A stretch of 59,251 nucleotides of DNA from Flavobacteriales bacterium (GTDB lineage Bacteria; Bacteroidota; Bacteroidia; Flavobacteriales; ECT2AJA-044). The notes beneath the pieces are model-generated. The model saw only the letters and a list, made by a program, of their open reading frames with translations, did no database searches and was not told where the DNA came from. Every line of letters starts with the position of its first letter. The stretch's first letter is position 1. Below, in pieces: positions 23,194 to 53,355 of the stretch. Both the position numbers and the translations under genes were made by a program. Location of the stretch: NCBI GenBank assembly GCA_021296215.1, contig JAGWBA010000003.1, positions 1 to 59,251 of the forward strand, written 5' to 3'.

Positions 23194-23590
23194 TTTTTCG
23201 AATTCTTAATTCTTAATTGGCAGTGAGCTTTGGCTTTGGCTTTGGCTTTAGCGAAGTTCATTTTTTCGAAAACCAGGCTAACGCAAGGCTTAAGCTGTTG
23301 GCTTTTTCAAAAATTGATCGCTTTGTGCAGCCTGATTTGCTCGAGGCAAGCTCAATCGCAAGTCCCAATTTCGGCTGCGCCGAAGTCCATTCGCTCTACG
23401 AGCGAGTAAATGACCATTGACTCCGTAAGGAATTAACTCGCGCGAAGCGCGAATTCACATTGACGTTGTCAATATTCACTTCTAGGTTCCAACCCCCACC
23501 AGCGGGGGACGATAAACTCGGGCGAAGCGCGAATGGACTCGCCAAAGCGAATCGCACTGGCCTTAAGGGCCAATTTTGGCGACCGCGCTG
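23194..23590. repeat. 397-bp non-coding block of hairpin words and short repeats (dinB-dnaE gap)
   Basis: No protein-like frame is present. The block is built from short motifs: ATTCTTA twice (23202-23215); a TTTGGC hexamer run (about 23229-23250); hairpins TTCGGC-TGC-GCCGAA (23370-23384), TCGCTC-TAC-GAGCGA (23391-23405), TCGCGC-GAA-GCGCGA (23438-23452) and TTGAC-GTT-GTCAA (23460-23472); and TGGCC-TTAAG-GGCCA near 23560. Two copies of the spacer GAAGTNCATT precede hairpins (23253, 23383). CATTCGCTCTACGAGCGAGT (23388-23407) recurs with one mismatch at 41849-41868. It separates dinB from dnaE, which are on the same strand, so transcripts may cross it. Confidence 0.75.
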
Positions 23591-38856: not shown

Positions 38857-39345
38857 ATGATGGCGGTGACCCACGACATCTGGCAGTGGATGGAAGAGGT
38901 CAGCGATCCGGAAATTCCCGTGCTGACCGTCGTTGACTTGGGCATTGTTCGCCGGGTCGATATGGATGGGGAGAATCCTGTGGTCACCATTACCCCGACT
39001 TACAGTGGATGCCCTGCGATGAACACCATCGAAGAAGAGATCAAGGAAAAACTAGCCGAGCACGGATACGCCGATGCGGAAGTTAAAACCGTGTTGGATC
39101 CCGCGTGGACGACGGACTGGATGACCGACAGCGGCCGTAAAAAGTTGGAAGAATACGGAATTGCGCCTCCTGCCGCAGGCAGCGTCAATAAAAAAGCCCT
39201 ATTTGGAGAAGCGGATAAGGTGCGTTGCCCTCAGTGTAAATCGACCAATACGCATATGGTGAGTCAGTTTGGCTCAACGGCGTGCAAGGCGATGTACCAA
39301 TGTGATGATTGCCTGGAGCCGTTTGACTATTTCAAATGCCTCTAG
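38857..39345 (+). CDS. paaD: PaaD, Fe-S/metal-cluster maturation factor for the epoxidase
   Basis: A 162-residue protein with an N-terminal MIP18/SufT-like domain (SDPEIPVLTVVDLGIVRRVD, TYSGCPAMNTIEEEI with the conserved cysteine) and a C-terminal zinc-ribbon-like tail (CPQCKSTNT, then CDDCLEPFDYFKCL). PaaD is needed for assembly of the epoxidase, probably delivering its Fe-S cluster. The in-frame hairpin word CCTGCCGCAGGCAG (39169-39182, encoding PAAG) also occurs in the sugar dehydrogenase and, inverted, in the BNR gene. The last five codons and stop form the left arm of a 16-bp perfect inverted repeat. Confidence 0.94.
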   Translation: MMAVTHDIWQWMEEVSDPEIPVLTVVDLGIVRRVDMDGENPVVTITPTYSGCPAMNTIEEEIKEKLAEHGYADAEVKTVLDPAWTTDWMTDSGRKKLEEYGIAPPAAGSVNKKALFGEADKVRCPQCKSTNTHMVSQFGSTACKAMYQCDDCLEPFDYFKCL

Positions 39346-39360
39346 GCATTTGAAATAGTC
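39325..39360. repeat. 16-bp perfect inverted repeat spanning the paaD stop codon
   Basis: GACTATTTCAAATGCC (39325-39340) and GGCATTTGAAATAGTC (39345-39360) are exact reverse complements around TCTA. The left arm encodes the DYFKCL end of PaaD and the TAG stop lies in the loop and right arm. It could terminate the paa transcript, but no T-tract follows; the right arm looks like a reverse copy of the gene end. Heptamer repeats begin immediately afterwards. Confidence 0.8.
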
Positions 39361-39388
39361 CGTGAACCATGGACTATGGACCATGAAC
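39361..39388 (-). repeat. Degenerate heptamer array, left flank of four-helix-bundle gene
   Basis: Four 7-nt units in a row (CGTGAAC, CATGGAC, TATGGAC, CATGAAC), equal to GTYCATG-type units on the minus strand. TGAACCATGGACTATG (39363-39378) is the exact reverse complement of 39855-39870 on the other side of the four-helix-bundle gene. The same four units in another order occur at 41702-41729. Confidence 0.75.
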
Positions 39389-39465
39389 TTCATGATCTTC
39401 CACTAAAAATTACGTTTTGGCCTCAGGTGTCATGATCAGTCCCTTATACTAGGGATATTGTAAGC

Positions 39466-39822
39466 ATGAGAAATTTTAGAAATTACACTGTCCGGGAAGA
39501 CGGATTGGCGCTTTATACTAGCATTTTCAAAGTCACACGGCAATTTCCAAAAGAAGAGGTTTATGGTCTTACTTCGCAATTACGGCGTGCGGCACTCTCA
39601 GTTCCGTCAAATATCGCGGAGGGCAGCAGTCGTAGTAGCCCTGTAGAATTCTCGAGGTTCATCGAAATCGCAACCGGATCACTTTTTGAACTCGAAACTC
39701 AGCTTATTGCAGCTCACCAATTATCTTACCTCAAACCAATCGACTTGGATATTCTTCAAGAAATGATCTCTTCGTTGAGAAAGCAACTCTTAGGCTTACG
39801 AAAGAAGCTGAAAGCTGCGTAA
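39466..39822 (+). CDS. Four-helix-bundle protein (S23/Avd-like)
   Basis: A 118-residue protein of the four-helix-bundle/'S23 ribosomal protein' family: F-P-K-E-E-V-Y-G-L-T-S-Q-L-R-R-A-A-L-S-V, then S-N-I-A-E-G-S-S-R-S-S, then F-I-E-I-A-T-G-S-L-F-E-L-E-T-Q, then the C-terminal basic helix. Relatives are encoded in 23S rRNA intervening sequences, near repeats, or (Avd) in diversity-generating retroelements; their function is nucleic-acid binding at best. No reverse transcriptase is present here. The gene is flanked on both sides by heptamer arrays carrying a 16-bp perfect inverted repeat, so the 508-bp unit (39363-39870) may have moved as a block between paaD and lgt. Confidence 0.9.
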   Translation: MRNFRNYTVREDGLALYTSIFKVTRQFPKEEVYGLTSQLRRAALSVPSNIAEGSSRSSPVEFSRFIEIATGSLFELETQLIAAHQLSYLKPIDLDILQEMISSLRKQLLGLRKKLKAA

Positions 39823-39851
39823 GCCCGTTTTACTATCCCTCTAAAGCCTCA

Positions 39852-39914
39852 GTTCATAGTCCATGGTTCAAAGCCCATGGCTCATGGCTTACGGCTTATG
39901 ACTCACGGCTTATG
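39852..39914 (+). repeat. Nine-unit degenerate heptamer array reaching the lgt stop
   Basis: Nine consecutive 7-nt units follow the pattern G(T/C)(T/C)CATG with single-base variants (GTTCATA, GTCCATG, GTTCAAA, GCCCATG, GCTCATG, GCTTACG, GCTTATG, ACTCACG, GCTTATG). The last units encode the C-terminal His-Lys-Pro and stop of Lgt on the minus strand. The array also carries the right copy of the 16-bp inverted repeat that brackets the four-helix-bundle gene. Confidence 0.8.
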
Positions 39915-40703
39915 GCCTCTACCGCGGTACATGAAATACGCCCCTACCAACACGGCCGGAATACTCAACCATTGCCCCATGTTCAGGGCCATGCCCTCTT
40001 CGAACTCAACCTGATTCTCCTTGATGAACTCCACGAAAAAGCGCACCCAAAAAATGGCCACCAAAAAGAAGCCGAAGAAAAATCCCTGAAGGTCTTTCCA
40101 GTTGCTTCGATAGTACTGTCGGATCATCACAATGAAAATCGCTAAATAACAAAGGGCCTCATACAGTTGCGCGGGGTGCCTCGGGGTCAAAGGATCCGCC
40201 ACATAGGCCTTAGTAAATATGAACGCCCAGGGTACATCCGATGCCACACCAATGATTTCGTGGTTGAATAGGTTTCCCATTCGAATAAAGAAACCCGCCA
40301 AGGCCACCACGATTACGATTCGATCCAAGATCCACAGCACCGATTTCTTCGAATACTTGCGCGACCACAAATAAAGCGACAGAATGATTCCGATCGCAGC
40401 CCCATGACTCGCTAACCCACCATTGTTGATCATGATGATCTCGCCCAAATTCTGCGAGTAATACTCCCAATCGTAAAAGAACACGTGTCCCAGTCGCGCC
40501 CCAACTATGGTCCCCACCATAGTGTAGATCAACAGGCCGTCGAGCCATTTCTCGTTCAGTTTCTCATACACGAACATGCGCTGCACAATCGTATAGCCAA
40601 AGAAAAACGCAAACGCAAACATGAGCCCATACCAGCGCACGGGCAGCCAATCGACGTTCGGAAAAATCTCGGGTTCAACGATCCAAGTGATGTAGCTGAG
40701 CAT
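39903..40703 (-). CDS. lgt: Prolipoprotein diacylglyceryl transferase
   Basis: About 266 residues from ATG 40703 (MLSYITWIVEPEIF); a longer upstream reading would add 42 residues with no membrane or family character. Seven membrane helices and the Lgt signatures are present: the HGA motif in GGLASHGAAIGI, the RxGNxxNxE motif in FIRMGNLFNHEI, and the HPAQLYE segment. It transfers diacylglycerol from phosphatidylglycerol to the lipobox cysteine of prelipoproteins in the inner membrane, the step before LspA. The C-terminal residues are encoded within a heptamer repeat array, suggesting the original end has been altered by the repeat. Confidence 0.94.
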   Translation of the reverse strand: MLSYITWIVEPEIFPNVDWLPVRWYGLMFAFAFFFGYTIVQRMFVYEKLNEKWLDGLLIYTMVGTIVGARLGHVFFYDWEYYSQNLGEIIMINNGGLASHGAAIGIILSLYLWSRKYSKKSVLWILDRIVIVVALAGFFIRMGNLFNHEIIGVASDVPWAFIFTKAYVADPLTPRHPAQLYEALCYLAIFIVMIRQYYRSNWKDLQGFFFGFFLVAIFWVRFFVEFIKENQVEFEEGMALNMGQWLSIPAVLVGAYFMYRGRGHKP

Positions 40704-40720: not shown

Positions 40721-41839
40721 TTAATACCAATCGAGCAGGGCCCAAATCCCCTTGCCGGCCATTAGATATCGGCGCGTTCCGGGCACGGGCACCACCGTGT
40801 AAAAGCCCCGTTCGGTAATAGAACTCCACTCGCCCTCAATTAGTACATCCGCTCCCTTTCGGCCTACCACCAATATGGATGGTTCTCTGCCTGCGGCAGG
40901 AAGTAGCACTATCCCCGTACGGTGACCGGGATTGCTCGACGGCATAAAATTCACCCACGTCTGGCCCCCGTCGTAAGTACGGGCCATACTCTGTGTATTC
41001 AGCTCCGGATGTTCCCAATCACCCCCTACCATGAAACCGACCGAATCGGTCAGCGCCATCCCCATGGGTCCCATCATTGCCGAACCTTTGGGCATCGGTG
41101 TGGCGATCGCATCCCAAGAACTCCCGTGATCACACGTGCGAAGGATCCGATTGCTTTTTCCGCCCGTCGCGATATACGTGCAATTCTTTGCGAACCCGAT
41201 CAGCTGATCACTCGCTGCGAACCCCGCTTCGCCCTCCAAGGGCTCCGGCAATAGTTCCGCATCGATCCGACTCCAGGTCAGTCCCCGATCCAGCGACCTG
41301 TAGATAGCAAAGGCCCCATCGAATGGATCCCCGAACATCCAACCGTAGCCCTCCGGTGAAAACCGCAGAGCGTCCATGAAAACTAATTCGGAATCTTCCC
41401 GCCAAACGATGTTCCAACTTTGTCCGGCATCTTCCGTGCACCACAATACTCCGGGACTCCCGGCCGATAACACCAATATCGTACTGTCGTCCAGCATTTC
41501 AATAGCCCGGTATTGCAAGGGCTCGGCAATGTCCACGGGCGGAATCAACGTATCGACACTCCACGTTCGACCCCCGTCATAGGTACTCGCTACGCGAAAG
41601 TCATCACCTCCCAACCAAAAGGTACTCGCGTTCCAAGCCTCCGCCGCTCTACAGCTCATGTCTTGAGGTAAGCGATCGAGCTCGAAATGGAACTGTTGGG
41701 CTATGGACCATGGACCGTGAACCATGAACAAAAAAAGGGATACTGGCAAAAGCCGGGAAGTTCTGGCACGGCCAAAGGATATTCGCCCTGCGGGCGAGGA
41801 AAAATGGGATATTGGCTTACGCCCGGATATTTTCGCCAT
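40721..41839 (-). CDS. Secreted BNR/beta-propeller (Ycf48-like) protein
   Basis: About 372 residues when started at the ATG at 41839. The mature part carries repeated propeller blades with BNR/Asp-box character (TYDGGRTWSVDT, TEDAGQSWNIVW, SLDRGLTWSRID, CDHGSSWDAI, TYDGGQTWVNF), resembling Ycf48/Hcf136-like and sialidase-fold proteins whose function in bacteria is unclear. The hydrophobic signal peptide core (SLFLFMVHGPWSIAQQ) is encoded by a heptamer array (41702-41729), and the basic region before it by hairpin words, so the export signal appears built from repeats. In-frame hairpin word CTGCCTGCGGCAGG at 40887-40900. The start is uncertain; a later start leaves only the hydrophobic core. 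Confidence 0.75.
   Translation of the reverse strand: MAKISGRKPISHFSSPAGRISFGRARTSRLLPVSLFLFMVHGPWSIAQQFHFELDRLPQDMSCRAAEAWNASTFWLGGDDFRVASTYDGGRTWSVDTLIPPVDIAEPLQYRAIEMLDDSTILVLSAGSPGVLWCTEDAGQSWNIVWREDSELVFMDALRFSPEGYGWMFGDPFDGAFAIYRSLDRGLTWSRIDAELLPEPLEGEAGFAASDQLIGFAKNCTYIATGGKSNRILRTCDHGSSWDAIATPMPKGSAMMGPMGMALTDSVGFMVGGDWEHPELNTQSMARTYDGGQTWVNFMPSSNPGHRTGIVLLPAAGREPSILVVGRKGADVLIEGEWSSITERGFYTVVPVPGTRRYLMAGKGIWALLDWY
41702..41729 (-). repeat. Degenerate heptamer array inside a signal-peptide coding region
   Basis: Four 7-nt units (TATGGAC, CATGGAC, CGTGAAC, CATGAAC) in a row, the same four as at 39361-39388 in a different order. On the minus strand they encode part of the hydrophobic core of the BNR protein's signal peptide (FMVHGPWS). 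Confidence 0.75.
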
Positions 41840-41868
41840 ACAAAAGTACATTCGCTCTTCGAGCGAGT
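41783..41868. repeat. Hairpin-word cluster upstream of the BNR gene
   Basis: Contains TCGCCC-TGC-GGGCGA (41783-41797), several GGATATT words, the spacer AAAGTACATT (41843-41852, identical to 52444-52453) and TCGCTC-TTC-GAGCGA (41852-41866). CATTCGCTCTTCGAGCGAGT (41849-41868) differs by one base from 23388-23407, and that difference is in the loop. Confidence 0.75.
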
Positions 41869-41933
41869 TGATGGGAGAGCAAGGCCTCCACAATGATGTT
41901 TTAGAAAAGTAGAAGAATCTATTGTAACACATA

Positions 41934-53215: not shown

Positions 53216-53271
53216 ATCGTTGATCGAAATTCCGGAGCTTGACTTATTTCACCAAACGAAGAACACTCACA

Positions 53272-53355
53272 GTTCATGGTTCATGGTTCATCGTTCATGG
53301 TTCATGGCCCACCGCCGACTGCCGACTAAGAACTCAACACTAAACCCTAAGGACT
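53272..53355 (+). repeat. Twelve-unit heptamer array between a sensor gene and lspA
   Basis: Five units of GTTCATG (one with a final C) from 53272 to 53306 are followed in the same 7-nt register by GCCCACC, GCCGACT twice, AAGAACT, CAACACT, AAACCCT and AAGGACT to 53355. The array runs into the lspA stop codon (53354-53356, minus strand). It is the clearest heptamer array in the window. Confidence 0.85.

Follow-up and report, generated by a model that had tools for sequence, protein, structure and literature searches.

A four-helix-bundle gene between inverted heptamer arrays in a Flavobacteriales genome, a candidate copy of a small mobile-type element

In the genome of a Flavobacteriales bacterium, a small gene for a four-helix-bundle protein is lodged between paaD and lgt and bracketed by inverted repeats, which raises the question of whether the gene and the repeats form a single entity and, if so, of what kind. 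The gene (39466-39822, plus strand, in the window, that is, the whole analyzed stretch of 59,251 nucleotides) is intact and encodes a 118-aa protein that belongs to both PF05635 (E 6e-32, 110.5 bits, curated cut-off 33.8) and TIGR02436 (E 1e-31, 109.4 bits, curated cut-off 24). Its neighbors, paaD on the left (plus strand) and lgt on the right (minus strand), are convergent. To our knowledge, no catalytic activity has been described for the PF05635 family. The closest PDB chain is 2gsc (XCC0516 from Xanthomonas campestris; E 2e-22); the genome of the latter species is rich in GGGAATC heptamers that often form convergent pairs (PMC4692102).

The preliminary description of this locus reported a perfect 16-bp inverted repeat around the gene, and the positions turned out to be exact: TGAACCATGGACTATG occupies 39363-39378, with the reverse complement at 39855-39870. 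In the entire window, this is the only pair of perfect 16-mer inverted repeats within 1 kb, besides a hairpin at the paaD end, and no such repeat is present in 40 equally long Markov-1 windows; chance is ruled out as its source. Both copies are indeed embedded in heptamer arrays, as had been noticed, and represent the best-matching stretch of two mirror-image, degenerate arrays. The left, upstream array (about 39358-39391, plus strand; lag-7 score 16 of 21) consists of ATGRACY-type units and holds the left 16-mer, and the right, downstream array (about 39852-39916, minus strand; TRF hits, lag-7 score 17) is its reverse complement. The right array grades into GGCTTAT-type units and overlaps the 3' end of lgt, so that the C-terminus of the encoded protein (...GHKP-stop) is specified by the array. 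The 16-mers had been taken for the ends of a 508-bp unit, a delimitation that does not hold: relative to the empty site in a genome of the same genus, the extra DNA stretches from just after the paaD stop codon (39345) to the last lgt codons (about 39905). Thus, neither 39363 nor 39870 marks an end of the element, and the arms are degenerate 7-mer arrays. The hairpin (39325-39360), identified by repeat search, is perfect, with a 17-bp stem and a 2-nt loop; it combines the paaD end with an inverted copy thereof, abuts the left array, is not followed by a T-run and has the appearance of an inverted duplication at the border of the insertion. Arrays that are not accompanied by a four-helix gene were detected by TRF and the lag-7 score at 41695-41735 (ATGGACC/ATGAACC units), 53262-53334 (GTTCATG units) and 23201-23228 (short, AATTCTT units, the weakest of the five arrays in the window). 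The array at 41695-41735 lies within the N-terminal coding part of a minus-strand ORF (40721-41932), encodes FMVHGPWS and apparently corresponds to a signal peptide portion.

Comparison of the source genome (hereafter G000) with the same-genus genome (G001, a single contig) shows that an empty paaD-lgt junction, which the preliminary description had suggested looking for, exists in a relative. In G001, where a TIGR02436 profile search yields no match, 4 bp separate the two stop codons, compared to about 560 bp in the window. A second intact copy in G000 (L004, contig C19) is a 432-bp insert with arrays at both ends, and its flanks are contiguous in G001 (CTACGAA joined directly to TTGG); a third, decayed copy (L006) is likewise absent from G001, with a less clean junction. 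No clear target-site duplication was detected at the two empty sites in this comparison, in which the flanks are only about 77-80% identical. Altogether, G000 contains 8 four-helix gene matches, 6 of them with internal stop codons, and most have heptamer-like flanks whose sequence varies between copies. The four-helix gene and the arrays are therefore present or absent as one block between close relatives. Judging from this presence/absence pattern and the dispersal of the copies, the block probably transposes; gain in G000 and loss in G001 both fit.

The association extends to many phyla. We analyzed 80 loci of relatives from named genomes, picked by the protein alone. Period-7 arrays occur at 33.0 per 10 kb upstream and 29.8 per 10 kb downstream within 200 bp of the gene, compared to 1.0 at 3-6 kb, so that instead of being equally common elsewhere, the arrays are about 30 times denser next to the gene. 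Under a loose threshold, 71 of the 80 loci have an array on at least one side and 9 have none. This count, together with the enrichment by distance, gives a positive answer to the question, raised in the preliminary description, of whether other four-helix genes are flanked by the same heptamers, with respect to the presence of flanking arrays but not to their sequence, which differs by locus. Period 8 is enriched near the gene as well, with 8-bp units at some of the 80 loci, whereas periods 5, 6, 9, 10 and 11 are not, and period 13 is represented by just two arrays per side. Among the 39 loci with arrays on both sides (loose threshold), 32 combine period 7 with period 7, seven combine 8 with 8, and none is mixed. 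The downstream flank is an inverted match to the upstream one in 68% of the loci (score of at least 14), compared to 3.8% for cross-locus pairs and 21% for the direct orientation; the two arms of one locus mostly match, even as the repeat varies from locus to locus. A single universal heptamer is rejected, there being only a weak AG-containing consensus: on the sense strand, it reads AG[TA]NNTN in the case of heptamers and AGNTWCWA in that of octamers, each scoring above nulls obtained by column shuffling; the upstream arm is poor in C. Copies on cyanobacterial plasmids mostly fit the pattern (e.g., GGGAGTA...TACTCCC in Nostoc), with the exceptions of Pseudanabaena, where the arms are direct, and Calothrix, where there are no arms. 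The Pseudanabaena galeata copy (L345, plasmid pPg_01, 2501-2860) is inserted between cas6 and cas4 in a type I-D CRISPR operon, and its heptamer arrays are long and in direct, not inverted, orientation.

Numerous copies occupy the same junction in different genomes, including one junction with octamer-flanked copies in twelve Flavobacterium-type genomes. Across such sites, an arm agrees better with its own partner (928) than with the arms of orthologous sites (734 +- 29; maximum of 839 in 5000 permutations). Furthermore, the choice between periods 7 and 8 tracks the protein tree, with 8 changes compared to 13.0 expected by shuffling and 0 of 2000 shuffles as low, in a test that kept one copy per site on a tree with many unresolved forks. 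These observations support the conclusion that the gene and the repeats belong together. At the genome level, lag-7 arrays number 29 in 414 kb of G000, a sample partly chosen for four-helix genes, and 0 in 400 kb of G001, and lags 9 and 12 give similar counts in both; 17 copies of RRACYATRRACYAT are present in G000 and a single one in G001, compared to 0 control matches. Genomes that lack the gene show no excess of lag-7 arrays over the control lags (25 vs 24 in 1.14 Mb), whereas 20 genomes with the gene contain 40 vs 12.3 in 0.40 Mb, an excess that partly depends on one genome, G038, which supplies 19 of the 40. Covariation per genome, assessed on one 20-kb stretch each, is not significant (p 0.10, Spearman 0.12), whereas pooling over more stretches against the control lags gives a significant excess, dominated by G038.

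Arrays located away from the gene often form inverted pairs of their own. A partner within 250 bp is found for 35-50% of these arrays in three sample sets and for 11% in a fourth one (nulls 3-8%), and in 53% of the cases, their repeat is that of the gene-bearing unit nearby, compared to 6% for other loci. In G048 and G064, octamer hairpins, some of them with a four-helix gene, are present at almost all junctions of the paa operon, and additional four-helix genes reside in the paa operons of G038, G052 and G137. Some orthologous junctions in the G048 and G064 operons (L300 and L301) carry different octamers, AATGTAAC vs AATTTGAA. Several four-helix genes are found at successive junctions of one operon in L299 (G038), L304 (G137), L303 and L306; such series, in paa and ABC-transporter-like operons, suggest local spread within operons. 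In G002, three gene-less heptamer hairpins with one repeat (TTTGAGG type) fall within 3 kb (L124, 12832-15817); they lie 2.5-5.5 kb away from a four-helix gene that lacks a clear array of its own. With the longest nearby ORFs taken as neighbors, both are encoded on the same strand as the four-helix gene in 102 of the 121 loci with readable neighbors and on the opposite strand in 6; after deduplication, co-directional gene pairs contain 61 sense and 5 antisense copies (p 2.6e-13). The elements are thus mostly located inside operons in the sense orientation, and the window copy, between convergent genes, is an exception.

Given these features, it seems reasonably probable that the window unit is a copy of a small, widespread element of a mobile type that has a REPIN/RAYT-like organization, in which the four-helix protein is cognate to the repeats. 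The protein would bind its own repeats, and binding would promote copying of gene-bearing units into operon junctions, in the way RAYT proteins are thought to promote copying of REPINs; acting in trans, the same protein could promote copying of gene-less hairpins into such junctions. Strand cutting and joining would be left to host enzymes or a separate partner because neither an RVT_1 reverse transcriptase nor a Y1 transposase is required. Indeed, the RVT_1 profile has no match in G000 or in most of the genomes of the order that carry elements (the element-rich G048 and G064 among them), and the Y1_Tnp profile has no match in G000 and none in G048; by this absence, either enzyme is rejected as a required partner for G000 and several element-rich genomes. 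This dispensability, along with the compatibility of the reading with upkeep of the arms at the DNA level, is why a REPIN/RAYT-like partnership is proposed. The sense orientation within operons would allow the gene to be transcribed from the host operon. Long-term retention of copies at one junction argues against this reading, being unlike a fast-moving element, as do the lack of a known catalytic activity in the protein family, the lack of a clear target duplication, the array-free loci, the direct-armed cyanobacterial copy and the partial dependence of the genome-level excess on G038. The original suggestion of a small non-autonomous mobile unit is retained insofar as gene and repeats go together; 'non-autonomous' is dropped, given that this copy carries the gene, and better suits the gene-less pairs.

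The element resembles several known systems and coincides with none of them. As in REPIN/RAYT systems, a repeat-flanked protein gene coexists with dispersed gene-less inverted pairs of the same kind; however, RAYTs are Y1 (HUH) transposases associated with GTAG-type REP palindromes, whereas here a four-helix protein is combined with tandem heptamers, and a REPIN/RAYT system proper is ruled out by the PF05635 membership of the flanked gene and the lack of a Y1_Tnp match in G000. Intervening sequences (IVS) of 23S rRNA that carry an S23 ORF, as in Coxiella and Leptospira, have been termed selfish or mobile. They encode the same protein family within complementary termini over a few hundred bp, an arrangement shared by the window element, which, however, is inserted between paaD and lgt rather than in a 23S rRNA gene; unlike in the IVS, the arms are locus-specific tandem 7- or 8-mers and cognate gene-less copies exist. 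Short length, inverted termini, presence or absence at given sites and gene-less derivatives are reminiscent of MITEs or minimal insertion sequences. The termini in the window are inverted, but degenerate, with 16 perfect bp at best, and in contrast to MITEs and insertion sequences, they vary between copies; no clear target-site duplication was seen at the two empty sites with diverged flanks, and there is no transposase within the unit (the genome scan covered Y1_Tnp and RVT_1). The heptamers of Cyanobacteria (STRR), Xanthomonas (GGGAATC) and Beggiatoaceae (TAACTGA) are also tandem 7-bp repeats, intergenic, dispersed and often in convergent pairs; unlike the gene-bearing unit, they have been described without an associated gene or, in the papers cited here, a proposed mechanism. 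One study of such repeats covers Beggiatoaceae, Cyanobacteria and Bacteroidetes and sees no evident mechanism for their transfer (PMC4679880); another describes them, often as convergent pairs, in Xanthomonas and Nostoc (PMC4692102). A search of the open-access literature, which mostly leaves aside subscription papers and preprints, found no report that connects S23/four-helix genes to heptamer arrays.

More tentatively, and with somewhat less than an even chance of being correct, we propose a new class of mobile elements, represented in many bacterial phyla and on one archaeal MAG contig, in which a four-helix protein, not a known transposase, drives the spread of inverted heptamer or octamer arrays into operon junctions; this class would then include, as its gene-less forms, the heptamers of Cyanobacteria, Xanthomonas and Beggiatoaceae and, as its rRNA-resident forms, the rRNA intervening sequences. 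The dispersed heptamers, with their puzzling origin, and the S23/four-helix genes, with their puzzling function, seem to belong to a single system, in which the period of the repeats can be predicted from the protein lineage, and the repeat in turn points to where the target of the protein may be sought. If confirmed, these elements would be a common class that has escaped notice and that remodels operon junctions in Bacteroidota as well as in other groups.

A different, rather unlikely explanation places the function of the arms in RNA: they would pair in the operon mRNA into a long stem, and RNase III would cut it, releasing the gene in the manner of 23S rRNA IVS or processing the mRNA, so that the hairpins are kept for RNA cleavage and not by transposition. 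The window element folds better than shuffled sequences (z -3.45), with the arms paired, and the hairpins at paa operon junctions fold far better than shuffles; the sense bias in co-directional gene pairs, the long-term conservation of the same junction and the S23-bearing IVS of Coxiella, whose ORF is enclosed by a terminal stem of 28 bp that RNase III cuts (PMC4990558), all agree with this explanation. However, selection for a stem in the sense transcript should produce an excess of G-U pairs, and sense-strand G-U pairs in the arms are not above A-C mismatches (176 vs 234; the per-locus sign test is not significant), so that an RNA stem gains no support; this result leaves room for arm upkeep at the DNA level and is compatible with RNA binding. 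Neither the period-7/8 units nor the dispersed gene-less copies with the repeat of the gene are accounted for by RNA cleavage, and the window copy lies between convergent genes.

The association could also be passive, with arrays arising by slippage or hairpin-templated copying and the gene inserting there or being tolerated. Many arrays do lack a four-helix gene nearby, and heptamers have been described with no partner (PMC4679880, PMC4692102), but the roughly 30-fold enrichment at the gene across many phyla, the correspondence of the period with the protein tree and the lack of a lag-7 excess in genomes without the gene render this improbable; slippage as the only origin is disfavored since it alone cannot make inverted arms 400 bp apart agree. 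Still far less probable is a retroelement satellite, in which the four-helix protein would be an Avd-like adaptor that recruits to the element RNA a reverse transcriptase encoded at another site. PF05635 is homologous to, and shares the four-helix fold with, Avd of diversity-generating retroelements (PMC10053308), and the sense bias in operons fits as well, but these retroelements include a reverse transcriptase, and the lack of RVT_1 matches, noted above, in G000 and in most genomes of the order that carry the element speaks against such a satellite. Another genome, G078, has nineteen RVT_1 matches, many with identical scores, which probably reflect a burst of one reverse-transcriptase-bearing element.
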